A stretch of DNA of 64,000 bases from an uncultured Endomicrobiia bacterium (GCA_937936785.1 CALDDQ010000004.1:1-64000); one strand, 5' to 3'; positions 26,368 to 44,494 are shown, counted from the stretch's first letter. Notes: generated by a model from the sequence alone, not told the origin. Numbers and translations are program-made.

Positions 26368-26739
26368 TTACTTTTTTAATTTATTTTCTATAACTTTTTT
26401 TAAAACTTCCAAATTAAATGGTTTAAATATACAATCACAAACGCCATTTCTGAATGCTTGAACAATACGTTGTGGATCTCTATAGGCAGTAATTAGTATA
26501 ATTTTTGTATTAGGATTAATATCTTTTATTTTTTGTAAAATTTCATTTCCATCCATTTTTGGCAGAGCAAGATCAAGCAAAATTATGTCAAATGAGATTG
26601 TATTAAGAATTTCTATTGTTTCAAAAGCATTTTTTGCAGTAAGGACAGAATAATTGTATTGTAGTAAATAATTTTTTAGAAGTTGAGTAATCTCTTCTTC
26701 ATCATCAACAATTAAGATTTTATGTTTGTTTTTTTTCAT
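26368..26739 (-). CDS. Single-domain response regulator
   Basis: A 123-residue receiver domain with nothing after it. The acidic pair is 'IVDDEEE', the phospho-accepting Asp is in 'IILLDLALPKMDG', the switch Thr is in 'IILITAYRDP' and the Lys is in 'CIFKPFNLEVLK'. It has no DNA-binding or enzymatic output. It lies 4 bp downstream of the hybrid kinase gene on the same strand, so it probably acts in that phosphorelay. It is closely similar to the regulator at 31729-32112 (shared 'AYRD' and 'DCIFKPFNL'). Confidence 0.92.
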   Translation of the reverse strand: MKKNKHKILIVDDEEEITQLLKNYLLQYNYSVLTAKNAFETIEILNTISFDIILLDLALPKMDGNEILQKIKDINPNTKIILITAYRDPQRIVQAFRNGVCDCIFKPFNLEVLKKVIENKLKK

Positions 26740-26742
26740 AAG

Positions 26743-28335
26743 TTAACTTTTATATATTGGTAAATATAATATAAAAGTTGTTCCTTTGTTTGGTTGAGAT
26801 TTTAGTTCTATTATTCCGTTATGTGCCTCAACTAAAGATTTTACAACGGAAAGTCCTATACCAAATCCTGTGGGATTATCTATTTCAGAAGAAGCTTTGA
26901 AAAATTTTTCAAAAATCTTTGTCTGATATTCTTGTGGAATACCAATACCTGTATCAGAAATAGTAAATTTTATAGTTCCAAGAGAATCTTTTGCTTCAGG
27001 AAGATTTTTTTCATCGTAACTACACAAAATTGTTATTTTACCATTTTCTGGAGTAAACTTTATTGCGTTAGAGATTAGGTTTGATATAACTTGTTTTATA
27101 CGTTCTGGATCAAAATATGCATTAATATTTTCTTGAATATTTGTTTCAAAGATAATTTTTTTTGTTGATGCTAAGTATCTAAAATCTTCTATAGTGTCAA
27201 TTACTAGTTTTCCAAAATTAACTGTTCCTTTTTTAAGTTTAAATTCGCCAACTTCAATCCGTGAAAAATCAAGCAAATTTTGTACTAAATCGTTCATTCT
27301 GGTAATATTTCGTTGTATAACTTGAACTAATTGTTTTTTGTTTTCATCTGTTTCTAAATCTGATAACAATTCTATTGCACCACTAATGGACATTATTGGT
27401 GTTCTTAAATCATGAGATACTCTGCTGACAAATTCTGATTTAAGTTTGTTATATTCAACAAGTTTTTTTGTTGATGCATAATTAGACAAGGTAAAAGTTA
27501 AAATGTTAGCAAAAAATGATAATAATACGGAATCTGTATCTAACAACTTTTCATCTTTAACTTTAGGAATTATAATATATATTATACCATAAATTTTATC
27601 TTTTAAAATAATAGGAATTACTAACAAAGATTCATTTTCATTTTGTTCAATAAAATTTTTACAAAAATTAGTTTTTTGTTCAGATGCAATTATTTGTGGA
27701 TTTTTAAGATGTTCTAATCTTTCCAAAGAAATATTATCTAAAATAAATTTTTTTCCAAAGTCCACATTTAACCCTTTTTTTGCAAGTGGAACAATTGTAT
27801 TTTGATCTTTATCGAACCAAAATATTGCACCTTTTTGTGATTTGTTAAGTTTTAAAGAAATTTCTAAAATATTGTTTAAAAATGTTATTTCATTAATTTG
27901 GCCTAATACATATCCATTTAGTATAGGTATAATTTCTAAAATTGCTTCTTGTTGTTGTAAATAATTTTTTGATTTTGTGGACAATAAAACGTTTCTAATA
28001 GCACTTAATAAAAGTGTTTTATCAAATGGTTTTAACAAATAATTTTCTGCACCATATTTTATTGCTTCTACTGTAGTTTCAATAGTAGCATAAGCGGTCA
28101 TCATTATTACAGAAATATTTTTGTTAATTTGTTTAATTTGTTTTAACAATTCAAGCCCATTAATTTCCGGCATCATTATGTCAACAAAAACAATATCAAT
28201 ATCAGTTTTTTTTATAATATCAAGAGAATTTAATCCCGAAGAAGTAGTGACAACTTCATACCCTTCTTTAGACAACATTCGTGATAACATTCTTAAAATA
28301 GATTCTTCATCGTCTACTACTAATATTTTAACCAT
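26743..28335 (-). CDS. Receiver-GAF-histidine kinase hybrid protein
   Basis: 530 residues, cytoplasmic, no transmembrane segment. Domains in order: receiver (about 1-120, Asp in 'DIVFVDIMMPEING'), GAF-like sensor (about 150-295), HisKA with phospho-His in 'VSHDLRTPIMSISG', and HATPase with 'NLISNAIKFTPE', 'DTGIGIP' and 'GFGIGLSVVK'. An N-terminal receiver in front of a kinase suggests it accepts a phosphoryl group from another kinase and then signals onward. It lies between a membrane kinase gene and a single-domain regulator, all on one strand, forming a likely relay. Confidence 0.92.
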   Translation of the reverse strand: MVKILVVDDEESILRMLSRMLSKEGYEVVTTSSGLNSLDIIKKTDIDIVFVDIMMPEINGLELLKQIKQINKNISVIMMTAYATIETTVEAIKYGAENYLLKPFDKTLLLSAIRNVLLSTKSKNYLQQQEAILEIIPILNGYVLGQINEITFLNNILEISLKLNKSQKGAIFWFDKDQNTIVPLAKKGLNVDFGKKFILDNISLERLEHLKNPQIIASEQKTNFCKNFIEQNENESLLVIPIILKDKIYGIIYIIIPKVKDEKLLDTDSVLLSFFANILTFTLSNYASTKKLVEYNKLKSEFVSRVSHDLRTPIMSISGAIELLSDLETDENKKQLVQVIQRNITRMNDLVQNLLDFSRIEVGEFKLKKGTVNFGKLVIDTIEDFRYLASTKKIIFETNIQENINAYFDPERIKQVISNLISNAIKFTPENGKITILCSYDEKNLPEAKDSLGTIKFTISDTGIGIPQEYQTKIFEKFFKASSEIDNPTGFGIGLSVVKSLVEAHNGIIELKSQPNKGTTFILYLPIYKS

Positions 28336-31728: not shown

Positions 31729-32112
31729 ATGTCAAATGAAAAAATTACTAAAAAAAGTAAAATTTTAATAGTAGATGATGATGCAGATATTGTGATAGTT
31801 TTATCAACATTTTTAGTTGGAGAAGGATTTAAAGTTTACACCAGTGCAAGACCATCACAAGCAATTGATATTTTAAAAAACTATCCTGTAGATCTCGCAA
31901 TTATAGATATTGCTATGCCTGAAATGGATGGTATAACATTGTTAAAGAAGATGAAAATAATTAATCCTAAACTTGAAGCAATAATGATAACTGCATATCG
32001 TGATGCAGAAAAGGTTGTAGAATCTTTTCGTGCTGGTGCATACGATTGTATTTTTAAACCATTTAACTTAAAATATTTGCGAACAGCTATAATGGGAAAA
32101 TTATTAGAATAA
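31729..32112 (+). CDS. Single-domain response regulator
   Basis: A 127-residue receiver domain only. It has the acidic patch 'LIVDDDAD', the phospho-Asp in 'DLAIIDIAMPEMDG', the Thr in 'IMITAYRD' and the Lys in 'CIFKPFNLKYL'. It has 'ttaggag' upstream. It is a paralogue of the regulator at 26368-26739, sharing the AYRD and DCIFKPFNL stretches. It precedes the giant Kelch/FN3 gene. No output domain is present, so it must act by protein contact or as a phosphate sink. Confidence 0.92.
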   Translation: MSNEKITKKSKILIVDDDADIVIVLSTFLVGEGFKVYTSARPSQAIDILKNYPVDLAIIDIAMPEMDGITLLKKMKIINPKLEAIMITAYRDAEKVVESFRAGAYDCIFKPFNLKYLRTAIMGKLLE

Positions 32113-32146
32113 AGTTTTTTAACATTATATTAAAGGAAAAACAAGT

Positions 32147-35100
32147 ATTAAACAAATAAAAAATATAATTATTTGTTTTTTATTGTTGTCTATAAAATTA
32201 TATTCAGCTTCTACTGCTACATTTAATAACGAATCACAGTTTATATATACAAACAATGTCTCAATAATAAGTTCTGGGACGACAAAAGTTTTACAATTAA
32301 ACAATCAATTTACAAAATTAAATTTATTATCTTTCCCGTCTAAAAGATTTTCTTACAGTATGTCATTCTCGTCAACAACCAATAGTATTTTTCTTTTTGC
32401 AGGTAAAGAAGGTTTAAATTATAAAAGTGATTCATGGAAATTTGATTGTGCAACTAATAACTGGACACAAGTTTTTCCTTCAACATTTCCTTCTGCTCGT
32501 GCTGGGCATTGTGTGGTTAATGTTGGAGGTGATAAATTTATAATTTTTGGTGGGGTCAATAATATAGATGGTTATTTAAATGACACATATTTTTATTCTT
32601 TAGTTCAGACAAGTTTTACTAAAATTATAACTTCAATTACACCGGATAAAAGAGCATATTTTGGTTCTTGTTATGCAAGTGATTATGATAGATTATACAT
32701 TTTTGGTGGTCAAGGTAGTGAAGGAAATTATTTTAACGATTTGTGGTATTTTGATGTAAAAAGTAGTTCATGGGTATGTGTAGGATCTACAACTACAGTT
32801 AATAAACTTTCAGAACATAAAATTGTTTATGTCCCAAATAAAAGAAGTATGTATTTATTTGGTGGAAAAATTGATGGGTCTAATATTAATTATAGTTCTG
32901 CTGTGTGGAAATATAATATTGAAGAGTCAAGTTTTAGTTTAGTAGGTTTTATGCCGTTTGGTGGAATAACTAATTTTGGGATAACATATTTTGAAAATTT
33001 AGATAAAATTTTAATTTTGTTTGGAGAAAAAAGGTATAGCCCTATTGAATTTTTAGAAGATTTATATTTTTATGATATAACAACAACTTCATTTACAAAG
33101 AATCTTCAACCATATTTAAATCTTCCATCAAAAAGAAAAAATTTTGATATTGTGTCTACAACATATTCTGTTATAATGTATGGTGGTTATGATGGTTTGG
33201 AATATTCAGACACATATATATACAAATATTCTTATTCGGGAGAGTTTATTACACAAAGTTATTATCCTTCAATTATAAATCCGACAAATTTTGGGTATAA
33301 AAAAATAAACTATTTTCCACCAGAGCAACTTTCTGGTGTAGATATCAAATTTCAAATTGCGTATTCTACAAGTCCATTTGGTCCTTTTAGTAATTTTTTA
33401 GGTCCTACAGATTCGCAGTCAAGTTATTATCAGTTTGATACTGCTATAAGTACAACCAATAATAACAAATATATTATGATCAAAGGATTTCTTTCTACTT
33501 CTAAAATTCCAAATAACCCATATTTTAACCCTTTAAATTTAATATACAATTTTGTACCATACAAACCTGCACTTATGTATCCTCAGAACACTTCTTCAAC
33601 AAATACTGTAACTGTAGAATTGTCATGGACAGCCGGGTCTGATCCAGAAATAAATGATACTGAATTTGTATATAAATTACAAATTTCTCGAACTACAGAT
33701 TTTAGTTTTTTAGTATATGAACAGGAAGTTAGCACTAATTATAAAAAAGTTCCTTCTCTTTCTACTGGCAAATATTATTGGCGAGTTGCTACAAAAGATT
33801 TTTATGATTATGGTGAATTTTCAAATTATTATGAGTTAGAGATTGATACTACAGCACCAAATAGACCATATAGTTTTTCTGCTAAAACTGGACCTAACAA
33901 TGGCGAAATTGTTGTTTCATTACGAATTTCAGGTGATGACGGTGATTTTGGTTTATTTAACGGGTTTGTTGTGGTAGGATTTTCTTCAACAACAATTATT
34001 GATACAGAAGAAAAGTTTAACAATGCAACTTTAGTTGAAATAGGTGTTGCAAACAAGAGTCCTTCTTCTGAATTTAGTACTATTGTAAGAGGATTACTTA
34101 ATGATACTACATATTATTTAAACATAAAACTAAAAGATGATGCAGGAAATTTGTCTGAAATTTCAACTTCAGCAGTTTCTGCTTTGACAAACTTTACTCC
34201 AAAGGTAAGTATGATATATCCAATTTCTTTCACTACATTGTCTGGTAATGTAACATTTAGTTGGATATATTCAGATTATAATGAAACAGATACACATAAT
34301 TTTTCATTAATGATTTCTTCTGATGATTTAGTTTATACTAACATTGTGTCAAACTTGCCAAATTTTACTACTACATATTTATGGAATTCGTTTTTGGTAA
34401 AAAACAGTACTTATTATATAAAAATAATTTGTCGTGATAATAAAGGGTTGGAAGGGTATGAGATAATAAATAATATAGAAATTAAAAATGACAATTTACC
34501 GCCACAAATAATTTCTTGGGTTTTTCCAAAACAGAATGATGTTTTATCAAAAAAAGTTACAATCTATTGGGAGATGTATGACCCAAATTTTCAAGATACT
34601 CACAAATACAAATTATATATTTCTACAGACAATAATGTGTTTAGTTTAGTAGAAGAAATTTTTTATGATACAACATTTTATATCCTTGACACTACTAAAT
34701 ATATGAATTCACCAAATTATAGACTAAAACTTTGGGTAACAGATGGTGAATATTATTCCGAACTTGTTTCAGAACAGTTTTCTATAATAAATCAAAATGT
34801 TGCTCCATCAAAACCTGAACTTGTTTTTCCAAAAAATAATTCGTTCATTTCTGTTCTTAAAATAAAATTTTTATGGGAAAAATCAATTGACGAAAACGAA
34901 GGTGATATAATAGTTTATGATTTTTATTTATCAACAGCACCTAACGGTGAACCATATTTTGTTTCAAAAACTTCTATTACAAAAACAGAGTATGAAATTT
35001 TTTATCCTGCAATATCTGAACGAAAAACATATTATTGGTATATAAAATCCAGGGATCAGTTCGGTTTAATAACACAATCTGAAATTTATAAATTTACAAC

Positions 35101-35884
35101 ATACGAAAAAAATAAAACTATTACATCAGATTATCAGGTATATGTAGAATTGTTAGATGGTTTGACTGAGAATGTTTTTATTTTTGCAGAAAAAATTTGT
35201 GATGATAAAAGACAATTAAAATCAATTTCTGTTGCAGATAGTAAGGATAAATTAAATAGATTGATAAAAATTATACCTTATGAAGTTTATAAAATAACTC
35301 TTTATGATGCAGATTTTAATGAGTTACAACAAGAGTTAAGATATAAATTAATATTTAGTGTTGATACTAAGAAATATACTAATATAGTTCCTATTAAAAC
35401 ACTAAAAATTTCACGGTTAGATGAAAAAAGAAATGAGTGGGTATTTACAGAATATTCTCAAAAATCAGAACAAAGACCTATACTAAATTTGGCCAATGAT
35501 TTTAATATCACAACACAATCAAACAAATTTGGTATTTATACAGTTTTAGCAAGAAATACAGTTGAACAACCAGTATCTAATATAAGAATATATCCTAATC
35601 CGTGCAACATAAATTTAGAACAGATAAAAATTGAGTATGTGTTGACTGAAAATGTAGATGTCAAAATACAAATTTTTACTCTTTCAGGTGGAATGGTTAA
35701 AGAGATGTTTTATTTTGCTGGTATTTCAGGGATATCTTCAGGAGTACCGGAGGGAAGTTTGAACGAAATTTTTTGGGATGGAAAAAATGATAAAGGTATG
35801 AAAGTTGCTAATGGGATGTATATATGTAAAATGTTTTTTGGTGATAAAGTTGAACAAAGATATATTGGAATTGTAAAAAAGTAA
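32147..35884 (+). CDS. Giant exported Kelch/FN3 surface protein with FlgD/T9SS-like C-terminal domain; likely ATT start
   Basis: 1245 residues if begun at ATT 32147; the track start (TTG 32183) cuts the signal peptide. From ATT the frame gives a basic n-region (KQIK), a hydrophobic core ('NIIICFLLLSI') and a cleavage-like 'LYSA', with 'aaagga' about 9 nt upstream. The protein then has about six Kelch-type repeats ('IIFGGVNN', 'LYIFGGQGS', 'MYLFGGK'; residues 60-360), four to five FN3-like domains (about 450-1030), and a C-terminal domain with 'IYPNPCN' and 'WDGKNDKGMKVANGMYICKM' typical of FlgD-like/T9SS sorting tails. It is a probable surface adhesin or sensor. Confidence 0.82.
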   Translation: MKQIKNIIICFLLLSIKLYSASTATFNNESQFIYTNNVSIISSGTTKVLQLNNQFTKLNLLSFPSKRFSYSMSFSSTTNSIFLFAGKEGLNYKSDSWKFDCATNNWTQVFPSTFPSARAGHCVVNVGGDKFIIFGGVNNIDGYLNDTYFYSLVQTSFTKIITSITPDKRAYFGSCYASDYDRLYIFGGQGSEGNYFNDLWYFDVKSSSWVCVGSTTTVNKLSEHKIVYVPNKRSMYLFGGKIDGSNINYSSAVWKYNIEESSFSLVGFMPFGGITNFGITYFENLDKILILFGEKRYSPIEFLEDLYFYDITTTSFTKNLQPYLNLPSKRKNFDIVSTTYSVIMYGGYDGLEYSDTYIYKYSYSGEFITQSYYPSIINPTNFGYKKINYFPPEQLSGVDIKFQIAYSTSPFGPFSNFLGPTDSQSSYYQFDTAISTTNNNKYIMIKGFLSTSKIPNNPYFNPLNLIYNFVPYKPALMYPQNTSSTNTVTVELSWTAGSDPEINDTEFVYKLQISRTTDFSFLVYEQEVSTNYKKVPSLSTGKYYWRVATKDFYDYGEFSNYYELEIDTTAPNRPYSFSAKTGPNNGEIVVSLRISGDDGDFGLFNGFVVVGFSSTTIIDTEEKFNNATLVEIGVANKSPSSEFSTIVRGLLNDTTYYLNIKLKDDAGNLSEISTSAVSALTNFTPKVSMIYPISFTTLSGNVTFSWIYSDYNETDTHNFSLMISSDDLVYTNIVSNLPNFTTTYLWNSFLVKNSTYYIKIICRDNKGLEGYEIINNIEIKNDNLPPQIISWVFPKQNDVLSKKVTIYWEMYDPNFQDTHKYKLYISTDNNVFSLVEEIFYDTTFYILDTTKYMNSPNYRLKLWVTDGEYYSELVSEQFSIINQNVAPSKPELVFPKNNSFISVLKIKFLWEKSIDENEGDIIVYDFYLSTAPNGEPYFVSKTSITKTEYEIFYPAISERKTYYWYIKSRDQFGLITQSEIYKFTTYEKNKTITSDYQVYVELLDGLTENVFIFAEKICDDKRQLKSISVADSKDKLNRLIKIIPYEVYKITLYDADFNELQQELRYKLIFSVDTKKYTNIVPIKTLKISRLDEKRNEWVFTEYSQKSEQRPILNLANDFNITTQSNKFGIYTVLARNTVEQPVSNIRIYPNPCNINLEQIKIEYVLTENVDVKIQIFTLSGGMVKEMFYFAGISGISSGVPEGSLNEIFWDGKNDKGMKVANGMYICKMFFGDKVEQRYIGIVKK

Positions 35885-35926
35885 ATAAAGTTAACAAAAC
35901 TAATGTAATTGGGAGGAGAACATAAA

Positions 35927-36295
35927 ATGAAAAAAATATTCATAGCTGATGACGACAAAGATTTGATAGAAGTTATATCATACAAATTACAACAAGAAGG
36001 GTTTTTGGTAGAATCATCTTTAGACGGAAATACTGTTTTGGATAAAATTAATAAAATTTTGCCAGATTTGATGATTTTAGATATTATGTTACCTGGAATT
36101 GATGGTGTTACTTTGAGTAATAAATTAAAAGAAAATGAAAAGACAAAAAATATTCCAATAATAGTTTTAACAGGAAAAATTGGTGTTAAAGATCTTTTTT
36201 TTACTGAAGACCAAACTACAGTATCTGCATATTTTCAAAAACCAGTTTCATTATCAACTTTGTTAACTAAAATTAAAGAATTGCTTAAAGTATAA
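35927..36295 (+). CDS. Single-domain response regulator
   Basis: 122 residues from ATG 35927, with 'gggagga' about 11 nt upstream. The longer track frame begins at a TTG inside the spacer. Receiver motifs: 'FIADDDKD', phospho-Asp in 'DLMILDIMLPGIDG', Thr in 'IIVLTGKIG', Lys in 'YFQKPVS'. It lacks an output domain. It lies between the giant surface protein and the PorV-like gene, suggesting the surface module is tied to phosphosignalling. Confidence 0.9.
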   Translation: MKKIFIADDDKDLIEVISYKLQQEGFLVESSLDGNTVLDKINKILPDLMILDIMLPGIDGVTLSNKLKENEKTKNIPIIVLTGKIGVKDLFFTEDQTTVSAYFQKPVSLSTLLTKIKELLKV

Positions 36296-36308
36296 AATTT
36301 TTTAAAAA

Positions 36309-37805
36309 ATGAAGTTTTTATTATATAAGATTATGATTTGTATGATGGTTTTAACAGTAACTGATAATATTTTAGGATTTATTTTTAATCAATCAGAGAG
36401 TGGTTATGTTTGGGAAAATATTTTTTCTTTTCCAACACAAATTGAAGATATAGGGTTAGGAAATGTTAACAACTCATTAAAAAATAATTTTAATTGTATA
36501 AACATAAATCCAGCTTTAGGGTATGATATTTATTATAAACAAATAAGTATTTTATATTCACCATTGAGTTTTGGAAGTGATTTTTCAATTGTGAATTATT
36601 CTATGCCGGTAGAACTAAATAAATTAAAATTTCCTTTAAGTTTTCAGGTAGGCAAGATCGTTTCTGGAGAAGCAGAACGTGTTAATATTTTTGGTGAAAG
36701 TTATGGATACAAGTTTAGAGAAAATTTTTTGTTTAATACAATTGCTTTTGGTTATTACTTGCAGAAATATGATATAAATTTAGGTTTTGGAATAAAAAAT
36801 GTTTATCAAAATTTAGATGAGTATAGTGCTTATGGTACAAACTTAGATTTAGGTTTTGTTGGTGCTTTAAAAGATAATTATGTTTATGGAATAAGTTGGC
36901 TAAATATTTTTCCAATAAATTTTGGTACAGAGAATACTGTTTCTTTAATACGTTCTGGTATAAATTTTGAAGTTATAAAAAATTGGTTTTCTAAGATAGA
37001 ATTAGGTTTAGGAATTGATTTTGTTAACATTTATGATTTTAAATATTTATCTTTTAGGTGGGGGATAGGAGGTAAAATTAGTTTTTTTGAATTGCCGATA
37101 TCAATTACAGGTTCAGCAGGATATTATGGATTAGGGTTCGGAATAAATTTTATAAAAGATAACATAAACTTTGGTTATGGTATAAATTATAATTTATTGG
37201 GATTAAATCATAAATTTGGTATAACATATAAGTTTAATTTTTATCCTGAAGAATATATTTCCCGTCTACAATTACAAAGAGATTATATGGAACAATCAAA
37301 GAAAGATTTTTTGTCTATATTTGAACAACAGAATGTTGAAGCAAAAAAAAGAAAAGAAGAAAGTTTATTACAACAAAAAATTTTGTTAAAACTAATTCAG
37401 GCAAAAGAATTTTATGAAAACAAAAATTATCTTGAGACGAAAAAGATCTTGTTAGAAATTTTAAAGTTAGATTCTAATAATGAAGTTGCAAAAGAAATGT
37501 TAAAATCAGTAAATTTTTATTTAGATTCTAATACAATAAATAATTTATATATAGAAGCAAAAATTTTGTATGAAAAAAACAAATATTTAGAGTCTATTAA
37601 CAAATTAAACAAAATCCTTGAACTTGATGAACAAAATGTTAATGCAAAAATTTTGTTAAGATTATGTTTAGCACAACAATGTATTAATTTAAAAAAGTTT
37701 AAAGAAGCAAAATCTGAACTTTTTGAAGTGTTAAAACTGGATTTGAACAACGAAATTGCAACTGAACTATTAAAAAAAGTGGAAACTTTATTAGAACTTG
37801 AATAA
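36309..37805 (+). CDS. PorV/UPF0164-like outer-membrane barrel protein with C-terminal TPR repeats
   Basis: A 498-residue protein with an N-terminal hydrophobic signal (about residues 1-24). Residues 30-315 alternate aromatic/glycine beta strands with an N-terminal 'FPTQIEDIGLGNVNNSL' and 'NINPALGY', which recall PorV/PorQ family proteins of type IX secretion. The last 150 residues are TPR-like helices with repeated 'LLEILKLDSNNEVAKEMLK' and 'LNKILELDEQNVNAKILL' units. No strong Shine-Dalgarno is seen. It probably forms an outer-membrane barrel with a periplasmic TPR arm. The family call is from pattern only. Confidence 0.68.
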   Translation: MKFLLYKIMICMMVLTVTDNILGFIFNQSESGYVWENIFSFPTQIEDIGLGNVNNSLKNNFNCININPALGYDIYYKQISILYSPLSFGSDFSIVNYSMPVELNKLKFPLSFQVGKIVSGEAERVNIFGESYGYKFRENFLFNTIAFGYYLQKYDINLGFGIKNVYQNLDEYSAYGTNLDLGFVGALKDNYVYGISWLNIFPINFGTENTVSLIRSGINFEVIKNWFSKIELGLGIDFVNIYDFKYLSFRWGIGGKISFFELPISITGSAGYYGLGFGINFIKDNINFGYGINYNLLGLNHKFGITYKFNFYPEEYISRLQLQRDYMEQSKKDFLSIFEQQNVEAKKRKEESLLQQKILLKLIQAKEFYENKNYLETKKILLEILKLDSNNEVAKEMLKSVNFYLDSNTINNLYIEAKILYEKNKYLESINKLNKILELDEQNVNAKILLRLCLAQQCINLKKFKEAKSELFEVLKLDLNNEIATELLKKVETLLELE

Positions 37806-37819
37806 CAAAGAATATATAA

Positions 37820-39121
37820 ATGAAAAAAATATTTTTATTATTTTTTATAATTTCAAATACAATTTTTGCAGATAATAATATTAAAAAGCAAGATATTGAG
37901 TTATATTATAATGTTGCAGTAGAAAAATATGTTCAGAACGATTATGAAAAAACTATTGAATATATGGAAAAAATTTATTTGATATCTCAAGAACAAAAGT
38001 ATAAAAATTTTATAGTAAAAGTTTTATATGAAGCAGCAAATAAAGAATATATGATACGAAATTATTCAAAAGCTTTTGAATACCTAGAAAAGTCAAAAAA
38101 ATATACTCAAACTGATGAAAGAATTAATCAATTAAAAGTTGTTTTACAAGATCTGTTATCAAAACAACAACAAGAGGTTAAAATGTTAAAATCAAAATTT
38201 GTTTCAGAGCAAAAACCTGAAGAAAAAGTTTCAGATGATATTAAGAAAGAAACTAAATCTTTAGAAAAAAAAGTTGTTGCTAATCCAATCTCAGAAAAAG
38301 TAAAACCAGAAGTTGTGCCAGAAAAAGAAGAAAAAAATTTTTCAGTAAAGAATAATAAAAATATTTATGTTTGGATTATAATTATACAATTATTAATATT
38401 TTTAATACTAAGCACAATTATATTTTTTATAAAATTAACCAATCAAAAACTAAATAATACAATAAAAAATTATGAGATAAAAATTTCGTTGCTTGAAAAA
38501 GAAAAGATAAAATTACAACAAACTAATTTAGATTTGTTATCTAAAGTTGAAAAATATAAAGAAAATGAAGATTTATATAAAAAAAATTTAGATGATTATA
38601 AAAATGAGATAAAAGAAAAAATGGAACAGATAAATTTGTTACAGAAACAGTTAATTGATCTTACCTCAAAACCAAAAATGGTTTCATATGGAATAGATAA
38701 TTTTCTACAAAAAAAACATAAAGAAATTATAGGGTATATTACTGAAAATCCAAAAGAAGAACAATCAGAGTTTGATATTGAAGCATCAAGAAGTAGAATT
38801 GCTTTAATGTTAAAAAATTTATACGAACTAAATCCTTCTAAAGCGTTAGAATCTATTGTTAATTTAGCTACAAACAAGAATCCTATGATTAGGATAAATA
38901 TTGTGCAAGGGCTAATAGAAATTGCTACGGAAGAAACATTTAATATATTGTTAAATTTGTATTCGGATCCGGATGAAAGGGTAAGAAGAGAAGTTATAAA
39001 ACGTTTATGGATATTGAAACAAAAAATTGATAATAATGCAATTGTTTTAAATGATAATATAAAAAGTAAAGTAATAGAAATTGTTCAATATGAAAAAAGA
39101 AAAGGTGAATGGATATTTTAG
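37820..39121 (+). CDS. Exported TPR / single-TM / coiled-coil / HEAT-repeat protein
   Basis: A 433-residue protein with a signal peptide ('FLLFFIISNTIFA'), TPR-like helices (about 30-120), a charged linker, a transmembrane helix (about 182-206, 'VWIIIIQLLIFLILS'), a long coiled coil (210-285), and a C-terminal HEAT-like pair ('NPMIRINIVQGLIEIATEE', 'DPDERVRREVIKRLWIL'). With a signal and one membrane span, its TPR part is likely periplasmic and its HEAT part cytoplasmic. It follows the PorV-like gene by 14 bp, so it may link the outer-membrane component to the cytoplasm. Function unknown. Confidence 0.7.
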   Translation: MKKIFLLFFIISNTIFADNNIKKQDIELYYNVAVEKYVQNDYEKTIEYMEKIYLISQEQKYKNFIVKVLYEAANKEYMIRNYSKAFEYLEKSKKYTQTDERINQLKVVLQDLLSKQQQEVKMLKSKFVSEQKPEEKVSDDIKKETKSLEKKVVANPISEKVKPEVVPEKEEKNFSVKNNKNIYVWIIIIQLLIFLILSTIIFFIKLTNQKLNNTIKNYEIKISLLEKEKIKLQQTNLDLLSKVEKYKENEDLYKKNLDDYKNEIKEKMEQINLLQKQLIDLTSKPKMVSYGIDNFLQKKHKEIIGYITENPKEEQSEFDIEASRSRIALMLKNLYELNPSKALESIVNLATNKNPMIRINIVQGLIEIATEETFNILLNLYSDPDERVRREVIKRLWILKQKIDNNAIVLNDNIKSKVIEIVQYEKRKGEWIF

Positions 39122-39143: not shown

Positions 39144-40643
39144 TTAATGTTCTTCAAAAGAAAACACAGTAAAGACGTACAATTCAGTTTTAGGATCTTT
39201 CCATGCATTAGGTCCAAGTCCTGCTTTCCCGTAACATAGTTCAGACAAAAATAACTCTTTTTTTGGTAGTTGTTGCCAAACTTGTGGTAAAAAAAGACCT
39301 GAATTAAATCCGCGTCTTACCACTACACCGTGAATATTTTCTTTAATTTCTTGTACAGAAGAAATTTTTTTCATAGGGGAAAGAATTGAGATTTCAATTC
39401 TTGTTTTTTCTAATTCTTGTTTTGTTAAAGGTGAAAATCTGGGATCTTCTGTTGCTGCTGCAATAGACATATTTATTACAGCCTGGTATAACGGTTCTTT
39501 AGATACTGTTGTGCCTATACAACCACGTAATTGATTATTTTTGTTTAAAGTAACAAAAACAGCTGCCGGTTGAAGAAGTTCTGGATCTGTAGTTTTAAAA
39601 TCTAAAATTTTTTTTGTAGTAAGATATTCATTAATTGTTTTTCGTGCTAAGTTTAGTAAAACTTTTTGGTTTTGTTCTGAAATTGTAAATTCATTTTTTT
39701 TAGTATCCATTTGTATGTTCTCCTTTGAAATATTTTTTTTAATTAAAGCAATAGACGCGTATCCTACTACACGCGATTTGTCGCCGTAAGTTGGTATATT
39801 ACCAGAGTTTGAATAATTTAAAAGTTTAACTTCGTTTCCAGACAAAAGTTGTGTTAACAATAAAGTTATTCCGACAGCAGTTTCTGCACATATAGCACAG
39901 GCAAAATTGTCAATAGGTTGTTTTTGTATTTTTGGTAATTCTTGGTAGAATTTTATCGGGTCAAAAGTTTTTATTAAATCAATTGTTTGATAATCAGCTT
40001 GTATCGCATCTGAATATTTTGGATAATGGGACAAATCCGTTGAACAAATTATTATTATAGGTCGTTTTGTAGGATAATTTTTTATTGTTTGGAAAAGATT
40101 TTGTGCAATTTGGTATGATTTTTTGTAATCGTAAGAACTGACCAAAATTGGTACAATGGTGAAATTAGAAAATATATGTTGCAAAAATGGTAGTTCAACT
40201 TCTAATGAATGTTCAGGAATATGAGGTTGAACTTCTGTAGTAAAAATATTTTTATAATTAGCAAGCTGGGAAATAAAATTTTTTTCTAATTCAACTTCAC
40301 CAAAAGGTGTTTTAAAATTACTTTTTGTATAAACAGAAGGTTTTTCTAAAAAATAATAATGTGATTGTCCAATTAAAATAATTATAGGATTATCTAAATT
40401 GTATAATGACAAATATTTAAATCCATAAGCAGCTACTTGCCCAGAAAACATATATCCTGCATGAGGAACTATTAATCCCAGTATTTGTCCTTCTACAGTT
40501 TGTTCTAAATTTACTCTGGATAAGTAAAAATCTATAACCTTAGATAACTCGTGCTTGTTAGAAGGATAAAACTGTCCTGAAACAGCAGGTTCTCTGCACA
40601 TAAGTTCACTTAAAAATAAAAAAATTAGTAAGATAAAATTCAT
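39144..40643 (-). CDS. MEMO1-AMMECR1 fusion (AmmeMemoRadiSam system proteins B and A)
   Basis: 499 residues from ATG 40643; the track start at 40667 is a TTG with no better support. After a hydrophobic leader ('MNFILLIFLFLSEL'), residues 25-300 match MEMO1: 'AVSGQFYPSN', 'IVPHAGYMFSGQVAAYG', 'EHSLEVELPFLQ', 'STDLSHYPKYSDA', 'CAICAET'. Residues 325-499 match AMMECR1: 'LRGCIGTT' and 'AAATEDPRFSPL'. Their radical SAM partner is at 44508-45512. The system is widespread in prokaryotes but has no settled function. The N-terminal hydrophobic leader is unusual and suggests export or anchoring. Confidence 0.92.
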   Translation of the reverse strand: MNFILLIFLFLSELMCREPAVSGQFYPSNKHELSKVIDFYLSRVNLEQTVEGQILGLIVPHAGYMFSGQVAAYGFKYLSLYNLDNPIIILIGQSHYYFLEKPSVYTKSNFKTPFGEVELEKNFISQLANYKNIFTTEVQPHIPEHSLEVELPFLQHIFSNFTIVPILVSSYDYKKSYQIAQNLFQTIKNYPTKRPIIIICSTDLSHYPKYSDAIQADYQTIDLIKTFDPIKFYQELPKIQKQPIDNFACAICAETAVGITLLLTQLLSGNEVKLLNYSNSGNIPTYGDKSRVVGYASIALIKKNISKENIQMDTKKNEFTISEQNQKVLLNLARKTINEYLTTKKILDFKTTDPELLQPAAVFVTLNKNNQLRGCIGTTVSKEPLYQAVINMSIAAATEDPRFSPLTKQELEKTRIEISILSPMKKISSVQEIKENIHGVVVRRGFNSGLFLPQVWQQLPKKELFLSELCYGKAGLGPNAWKDPKTELYVFTVFSFEEH

Positions 40644-40724
40644 TATTTTAGATATATAAAAAAACAATTAAAATTTCTATAATAAGTTTGAATTTTTATA
40701 AAAAAATGTAGTATAAAGAACATT

Positions 40725-42844: not shown

Positions 42845-44494
42845 CTAATTTTTAGGTAAATAAAATAGTATTTTTGTCCATTTTCCAAATTCAGATTCTG
42901 CCCAAATATTTCCGCCATGAGTTTCTATGATATTTTTAGAAATTGCAAGTCCAAGCCCAAATCCAGGTTTTTCTTTTGTGGTGATATTAGTTAATTGAAC
43001 AAAAGGATTAAAAATAGTTTTTAAACTTTTTTCTTCAATGCCCTGTCCATTATCTTCTATACAAAAATTAATTTTATTTAAAGTTTCGTTGGTACGAATT
43101 ATTATATGTTTTGATTTTTGTTCTATAGGCATAAATTTAATAGAGTTGTTTAACAAATTTGTTATAACTTGTTTAATTCTGTCTCTGTCAAAATAGAATT
43201 TATCAGTAGTATGGTTTAATTCGAGTTGTAAGTTTATGTTAGACGATTTTAAGTTTAGTGTATATTCTTCAACAATTTCGTTTATTAAATCAGAGATAGA
43301 ATTTTCTTTTTTTATAATAACAAACTTACCTTTATCCATTCTTGAAAAATCTAATAATTGTTCAATTAAACCATCAAGTCTTTTGATATTACGTTTTGCA
43401 AGATCGTATAATTGATTACTTAAATTCTTTTCTGCAAGTTCTATCGCTGCAGAGAGTACCATCAAAGGTGTTCGTAATTCATGATTTATTATTGAAATAA
43501 AATTCGATTTTAGTATGTCATATTCAATAATAATTCTGTTTTTAATAATGATGAAATATATGTAAGAAATCCATTTTGCAAACAAGTTCGAAATATGAAA
43601 CTCTTGTTTTGAAAACATTTTTTTGTTTGGAAATAATCTTGTAATACAAATTATTCCTAATACATTGTTATCAAAAGTTAAAGGTAGTATTATTGATGAA
43701 ATTATTTTATTTGATGATATAATATTTTTAGAATATAAGTTACGATATTTTTTTAACCCATCTTGTAACAAAAGACTTTTTTTAGCTTTTATAGCATAAT
43801 TTATTATTTTCCAATTATTTTGAACAGTAAGATTATCATCTAATGCTGTTTTAAATCCATAGGAAGAAACTAATTTATATTTTTCTGTGTTACTATCATA
43901 TAAAAAAATTGAAATTTTTTCAGGACAAAACATTTTTAACAATTTTTTTGTAATCAAATTAAAGATTTTTTTGATGAAATAATCAATATAATCTATGTTA
44001 CCATTCTTAGTTAAAAAAGTTTCTTTTTTGGACATAAAATATTGTTCGTATTTAACTAAAAATTCTTTGTTAATATCAAACAAATTTTTTAACAGTTCTC
44101 CTTGAAGCGTTATTTTATGTGTGTTAATTAGATTTTTAAATGTAGCAAGAAAAGAGTTATGATCAGTGTAGTTTATAAAAGTTGAAGCACATTTGTTTTT
44201 TTGTAATAATGAACAAGTTTTTATACTACAAGATTTTTTTAAGTCATGAACCAAAGTTACATAAAATAACATTGGAAAATTTTTAAACATAAACTTATGA
44301 ATTTCTGAACGTTTATAAGGATCGGTACAGGTGCTGGTAAGAACAATTTCATAATTTTTAGAATATAAAATATTTTTAAATTCAGTGAAACTAATTTTAT
44401 CTGAAATAACATCAACTTTGAACCCATTGTTTTGTAATAGTTTTGCAATTTTAAAATAAGAACCAGTAGATATAAACAAAATTTTTTTATACAT
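42845..44494 (-). CDS. Cytoplasmic histidine kinase with Cys-rich receiver-like N-terminus and GAF
   Basis: 549 residues, no transmembrane helix. Residues 1-130 have a receiver-like alternation ('ILFISTGSYFKIAKLLQNNG') but no proper phospho-Asp motif; instead they carry a Cys cluster ('CSIKTCSLLQKNKC'). A GAF-like domain follows (about 165-300). HisKA has 'INHELRTPLMVLSAA' and HATPase has 'NLLNNSIKFMP', 'EDNGQGI' and 'GFGLGLAIS'. It sits between the radical SAM gene and moeA with very short spacing, so it may sense something tied to those pathways. The Cys cluster could bind metal or Fe-S; that is inference. Confidence 0.85.
   Translation of the reverse strand: MYKKILFISTGSYFKIAKLLQNNGFKVDVISDKISFTEFKNILYSKNYEIVLTSTCTDPYKRSEIHKFMFKNFPMLFYVTLVHDLKKSCSIKTCSLLQKNKCASTFINYTDHNSFLATFKNLINTHKITLQGELLKNLFDINKEFLVKYEQYFMSKKETFLTKNGNIDYIDYFIKKIFNLITKKLLKMFCPEKISIFLYDSNTEKYKLVSSYGFKTALDDNLTVQNNWKIINYAIKAKKSLLLQDGLKKYRNLYSKNIISSNKIISSIILPLTFDNNVLGIICITRLFPNKKMFSKQEFHISNLFAKWISYIYFIIIKNRIIIEYDILKSNFISIINHELRTPLMVLSAAIELAEKNLSNQLYDLAKRNIKRLDGLIEQLLDFSRMDKGKFVIIKKENSISDLINEIVEEYTLNLKSSNINLQLELNHTTDKFYFDRDRIKQVITNLLNNSIKFMPIEQKSKHIIIRTNETLNKINFCIEDNGQGIEEKSLKTIFNPFVQLTNITTKEKPGFGLGLAISKNIIETHGGNIWAESEFGKWTKILFYLPKN

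Follow-up and report, generated by a model that had tools for sequence, protein, structure and literature searches.

A five-gene module in an Endomicrobiia genome

We analyzed a window of 64,000 nt from an uncultured Endomicrobiia bacterium (GCA_937936785.1 CALDDQ010000004.1:1-64000), whose own genome (G000) comprises 1.56 Mb in 25 contigs, and found five consecutive genes at positions 31729-39121. Gene calls and Pfam matches placed them co-directionally on one strand in the order RR1, giant, RR2, barrel-TPR and bridge (Table 1), in agreement with a sequence-only reading of the same DNA. That reading had described the module as framed by response regulators; the receivers are present, but the framing is slightly off, with RR1 preceding the giant and RR2 lying between the giant and the barrel. 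The host belongs to the little-studied phylum Elusimicrobiota, its named relatives being Endomicrobia and Elusimicrobia bacteria, and is placed outside Bacteroidota as had been supposed. A promoter and terminator scan at the locus gave scores no better than those of shuffled sequences. The gene directly downstream of the module, on the minus strand at 39144-40667, looks like a MEMO1-AMMECR1 fusion when read from its sequence.

Table 1. Features of the module and associated genes, with positions in the window unless a locus or contig is given
Feature	Position	Strand	Basis or content
RR1, stand-alone CheY-like receiver, 127 aa	31729..32112	+	PF00072 4.6e-28
Giant surface protein	32147..35884	+	Signal peptide, Kelch, FN3/Ig-like, linker domain, sorting-domain-like tail; ATT start
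Sorting-domain-like tail of giant	35582..35881	+	Motifs YPNP ... WDGKN ... NGMY ... K
RR2, stand-alone CheY-like receiver, 128 aa	35909..36295 (ATG at 35927)	+	PF00072 4.3e-19
PorV/PorQ-like outer-membrane barrel with TPRs	36309..37805	+	AF2 model, Foldseek, PorQ/PorV_fam profiles
Bridge protein	37820..39121	+	Signal peptide, TPR, K/P/E-rich linker, TM, coiled coil, HEAT, C-terminal GEWIF
HK549, GAF-HisKA-HATPase kinase	42845..44494	-	Pfam; kinase tree; position of orthologue
Receiver-HisKA-HATPase hybrid kinase	26743..28335	-	Same broad family as module-adjacent kinases
Divergent SprA-type translocon, 1736 aa	L053:984-6194; G000:C3:64986-69887	-	TIGR04189, SprA profile; beside LptF/LptG-like genes

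Predicted structures of the three large proteins

The giant had been read as a protein of 1245 residues, a length that requires the ATT at 32147 as start codon; with only ATG, GTG and TTG starts, the product has 1233 residues and its signal peptide is cut. The ATT is preceded by AAGGAAA and restores the full signal peptide, and it represents either a rare start codon in real use or a base error in the sequence. The protein consists of a Kelch propeller (residues ~60-400; Pfam, 1.4e-41), FN3/Ig-like domains (~470-985), a linker domain (985-1145) and the tail (1146-1245), and its full-length orthologues share 28-39% identity.

A tail similar to those of type IX secretion substrates had been proposed for the giant, and both structure and sequence comparisons bear this out. 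Structures were predicted from shallow alignments of 10 and 16 sequences; the model of the last 261 residues (pLDDT 88.9, pTM 0.80) showed a sorting-domain-like fold, and a Foldseek comparison against the PDB ranked PorU first and PorZ 12th, the other matches being mostly generic beta-sandwich enzymes. The tail also aligned to positions 994-1078 of the PorU sortase profile (E 1.1e-8), a region that is PorU's own C-terminal sorting domain, and the same end of the profile was matched by the giants of G004, G024, G042, G049, G065 and G077. Pfam matched FlgD_ig with E values of 0.018 over the whole protein and 0.0011 for the isolated tail, while the window tail fell below the curated cut-off of PF18962 (18.9 bits vs 27). 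Among 16 giant tails, matches at E≤0.1 were found to FlgD_ig in all 16, Por_Secre_tail in 13 and CHU_C in eight, and this split among families does not settle their assignment to type A or type B.

The next large gene had been described as a PorV/UPF0164-like barrel fused to TPRs. The PorV-like fold was recovered in the AlphaFold2 model, a barrel (pLDDT 79, pTM 0.54) whose best PDB matches by Foldseek, 8gl6_F (4.4e-10) and 6h3i_F (4.6e-9), are both PorV of the SprA-PorV complex. The UPF0164 identity was rejected, as PF03687 does not match the barrel gene and its three matches in the genome are other genes. The barrel (residues ~35-310) is followed by a long helix (313-370) and the TPRs (374-497). 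A sequence profile of ten barrels also matched PorV among the PDB sequences (E 0.018), the sole barrel in that list, and the NCBIfam matches included no PorP/SprF-type model, the nearest being PorQ and PorV. The window barrel itself matched PorQ weakly (9.7e-6, 24.8 bits vs the curated cut-off of 220), and at E≤0.01 PorQ was matched by all ten members of the barrel family and PorV_fam by eight. A search of the barrel against viral contigs found nothing.

For the third large gene, the signal-TPR-TM-coiled coil-HEAT architecture first suggested was supported by a HEAT_2 match (1.1e-7 in the window; matches in 10/10 bridge members) and by hydropathy, which in most members indicated a signal at the N terminus plus a single additional TM. 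The TPRs occupy residues 20-112, the TM 186-204 and the HEAT repeats 300-433, and the extreme C terminus reads GEWIF. Because positive residues follow the TM, the HEAT side is suggested to face the cytoplasm. A C-terminal W[ILV][FILM] motif (hereafter the W motif) was present in all 27 bridge homologues from RR2-type loci.

Receivers and candidate kinases

Both receivers score far above the PF00072 cut-off, keep the phospho-acceptor Asp, the Ser/Thr and the Lys in alignments, and consist of the receiver domain only, with no DNA-binding, output or PglZ domain. Among 89 receivers, the RR2s from 25 module loci formed a single clade of 25 with a support of 1.0, and a profile built for RR2 gave them 143-198 bits, whereas no other receiver exceeded 104; by sequence comparison, RR2 is specific to the module. 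RR1 was present in seven Endomicrobiia-type loci, where orthologues are 59-73% identical, and additionally in a reduced locus (L189). In the tree it formed a clade of seven (support 0.98), and on phylogenetic grounds it is an Endomicrobiia-type addition to the module. Another stand-alone receiver like RR1 (132 bits), on the minus strand at 26368-26739 and downstream of the hybrid kinase, falls outside the RR1 clade.

The hybrid kinase was our initial candidate for the cognate kinase of the module and was superseded by HK549 on the kinase tree. As HK549 groups with the kinases adjoining the module in relatives and its orthologue in G004 (L039) lies immediately next to the bridge gene, we infer that it is the likely partner of the module receivers, with the hybrid kinase as a possible second one. 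The N-terminal part of HK549 resembles a degenerate receiver, and relatives have an intact receiver in that place.

Conservation and natural rearrangements

The linkage of these genes was originally proposed from the gene order of one genome. We found the complete order RR1-giant-RR2-barrel-bridge in seven genomes (the window, L039, L040, L042, L044, L045 and L046; the receivers of L040, L044 and L046 were located by tblastn) and linked subsets of the module in about 30 genomes reaching Firestonebacteria, most of the genomes compared being metagenome assemblies. More distant Elusimicrobiota families have giant-RR2-barrel-bridge or RR2-giant-barrel-bridge, and Firestonebacteria show RR2-barrel-bridge-giant (L068, L183). 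The evidence for linkage is accordingly wider than before, RR2 forming a single clade despite the shuffled order at some loci. The sequence-only reading had named the lack of a barrel or C-terminal-domain fold, or of a conserved order, as grounds for its rejection; both folds are predicted and the order is conserved in relatives.

The barrel and bridge genes were adjacent in nearly all bridge loci, and 4-bp overlaps were seen among the RR2, barrel and bridge genes in several genomes. Full-length orthologues of the barrel-TPR protein were found in 9/60 class relatives. At E 1e-10, the bridge profile matched 29 of the 295 genomes of the phylum and no listed member of family f3. The f3 genomes are small and probably host-associated, and many of them keep SprA though they are without the bridge.

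Rearranged loci support a division of the module into two parts. At L189 (G038:C2) and L190 (G058:C38), RR2 lies beside a TPR-less TM-coiled coil-HEAT protein carrying the W motif, and barrel and giant are absent at the locus, which leaves room for copies elsewhere in G038 and G058; L189 additionally keeps RR1 and the flanking kinases. The opposite pattern was found at L184 and L197, which are second copies, each in a Firestonebacteria-group genome with an RR2-type copy as well: these loci retain the tail protein, the barrel and TPR-TM, their HEAT scores are weak (27-30 bits), the W motif is absent, and no receiver was found within 14-18 kb around the locus. Judged from these sequences, the receivers appear to go with the HEAT part, and barrel and TPR to persist where HEAT decays. 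The rearrangements represent few independent events, the HEAT loss in L184 and L197 being probably one and the L189/L190 form probably one or two, and we claim no statistics for them.

We had also considered that the W motif tracks any receiver. This was dropped on finding L185-L187, Firestonebacteria-group loci in which the barrel and a TPR-TM-HEAT protein lacking the motif are followed directly downstream by a different, overlapping stand-alone receiver; the motif is therefore linked to the RR2 clade only and is not required for receiver linkage.

A putative type IX-like system in Elusimicrobiota

Type IX secretion has been described as confined to Bacteroidota or to the Fibrobacteres-Bacteroidetes-Chlorobi group (PMC5445135, PMC11205867). 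A search for an SprA homologue, as had been advised for this locus, found a divergent one in the host's own genome. The SprA_N model (PF14349) gave no SprA match there, though a profile of divergent Elusimicrobiota SprAs later did; this profile was built from two sister-genome sequences of 1733 and 1764 aa, each with LptF/LptG-like genes next to it. The own-genome protein matches TIGR04189 at 2e-20 (71.6 bits, under the curated cut-off of 200), and a three-sequence SprA profile matched in the PDB only F. johnsoniae SprA (9e-14). The two-sequence profile also recovered SprA from Marinifilum (2e-88) and one from Firestonebacteria (7e-151), and found SprA in 257 of the 295 sampled Elusimicrobiota genomes (87%), the host's included. 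All 29 bridge-bearing genomes were SprA-positive, which is weak evidence given this base rate.

Among the matches listed for the PorU profile, those from Elusimicrobiota were tail-length only and none was a full-length sortase; full-length matches were seen for Ignavibacteriales (1e-297) and for Krumholzibacteriota (8.5e-146). As probes for the PorLM motor and the PorKN ring, profiles of GldM and GldN matched no SprA-bearing genome, comparison genomes included, and are hence uninformative about absence. Substrates with a C-terminal sorting domain and PorV-family carriers do occur among other proteins of the host genome, which scored above the cut-offs of TIGR04183 and NF033709, and other tail-bearing proteins (L049:9229-12791, L051:8920-12315, L052:11036-13752) are each followed by a PorV_fam barrel of their own. 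These own carrier barrels, the SprA homologue and the lack of a listed full-length PorU together suggest a type IX-like system in which each substrate retains a carrier of its own, in the manner of type B substrates (PMC12635249). We found no report linking type IX secretion with Elusimicrobiota in a literature search whose coverage, short of most subscription journals and bioRxiv, does not establish priority.

A candidate trans-envelope device

Starting from the domains, predicted folds, conserved linkage and SprA homologue observed above, we consider it somewhat more probable than its negation that the five genes encode one trans-envelope surface device under inside-out control, whose contacts, topology and direction we infer. 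In this model, the cell's divergent SprA-type translocon would export the giant, whose C-terminal sorting domain would bind the co-encoded PorV-like barrel as its dedicated carrier. The giant would then remain attached, since no PorU-type sortase was found. The TPRs after the barrel would lie in the periplasm and meet those of the bridge, which would span the inner membrane once, leaving the coiled coil, the HEAT repeats and the conserved W motif on the cytoplasmic side. RR2, having no output domain, would dock at this cytoplasmic part under the control of a hybrid kinase that is soluble, and some lineages would use RR1 as an additional receiver; phosphorylation would alter bridge and carrier and, through them, how the giant is attached, exposed or moved. 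The more specific claim, that the receivers directly switch a type IX-exported giant across both membranes through the HEAT-TM-TPR bridge and the TPR-fused PorV-like carrier, we advance tentatively, at a little under even chances.

The direction of signaling could be reversed, the giant binding a ligand and acting through barrel and bridge so that the HEAT repeats tune hybrid kinases and thereby RR1 and RR2. Kelch propellers and FN3 domains, both present in the giant, typically serve in binding, relatives have several PAS/GAF kinases next to the module, and a two-component partner beside a surface protein could equally mean sensing. The receivers, however, lack an output domain and are not accompanied by any conserved dedicated output gene, and the module-adjacent kinases look soluble and have a GAF sensor of their own, so that we regard outside-in sensing as unlikely, at perhaps one chance in four. 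Inside-out control is favored because no DNA-binding domain occurs in the receivers, which also lie next to their presumed target, and by our assessment it would be roughly twice as probable as sensing.

The same domain composition bears on a minimal reading, an ordinary substrate-carrier pair with neighboring two-component genes that merely regulate its expression. Plain pairs of a tail protein and a PorV_fam barrel are common in the host genome, but neither receiver could bind DNA through a recognizable domain and RR2 remains beside the HEAT protein at loci that lack both barrel and giant, leaving this reading very improbable. If the device were an adhesin of the gliding type with its carrier, and CheY-like receivers moved or switched it, this would account for a large adhesin-like giant encoded with a dedicated carrier and CheY-like proteins, a combination recalling SprB-SprF and PorX-GldL (PMC12635249, PMC10951265). 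The carrier resembles PorV/PorQ and not PorP/SprF, however, and no track or motor homologue was identified, though the GldM and GldN profiles are silent in SprA-bearing comparison genomes as well; we consider a drive for motility or adhesion improbable, less so than the ordinary pair.

Relation to known systems

The inside-out device would be a new arrangement of known parts. With the SprA-PorV system of F. johnsoniae and P. gingivalis it shares the PorV-like fold, the PorU-like tail and an SprA homologue in the genome, but its carrier is TPR-fused and encoded with the substrate, no full-length PorU was found, and motor and ring were not identified. Type B substrates such as SprB have dedicated carriers, linked by a disulfide to GldK (PMC12635249); here, too, there is one giant per carrier, presumably anchored permanently, and a carrier tied to a periplasmic structure, whereas the carrier is PorV/PorQ-like, the link runs through TPRs to an inner-membrane bridge, and receivers are built into the operon. 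In the PorXY two-component system, PorX contacts the cytoplasmic domain of GldL through its receiver domain once this is phosphorylated (PMC10951265), and the module resembles this system in placing a CheY-like domain beside a type IX component and a target with a cytoplasmic domain; it differs in that RR1 and RR2 consist of the receiver alone, with no PglZ domain, and that a HEAT protein takes the place of GldL as the candidate target. Lone receivers next to a membrane target also recall CheY at the flagellar switch. The Lap system (LapD-LapA) controls a surface adhesin across the envelope from the inside out, using c-di-GMP and a periplasmic protease; the direction of control would be shared, but the protein families differ, as do the messenger and the protease. 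If the model is true, cytoplasmic phosphorylation would control a protein outside a two-membrane cell through links that are each separately testable, and would do so in a phylum so far not recognized as having type IX secretion. The presence of SprA homologues in most of the sampled Elusimicrobiota would alter the picture of type IX distribution and bear on the age of the system.
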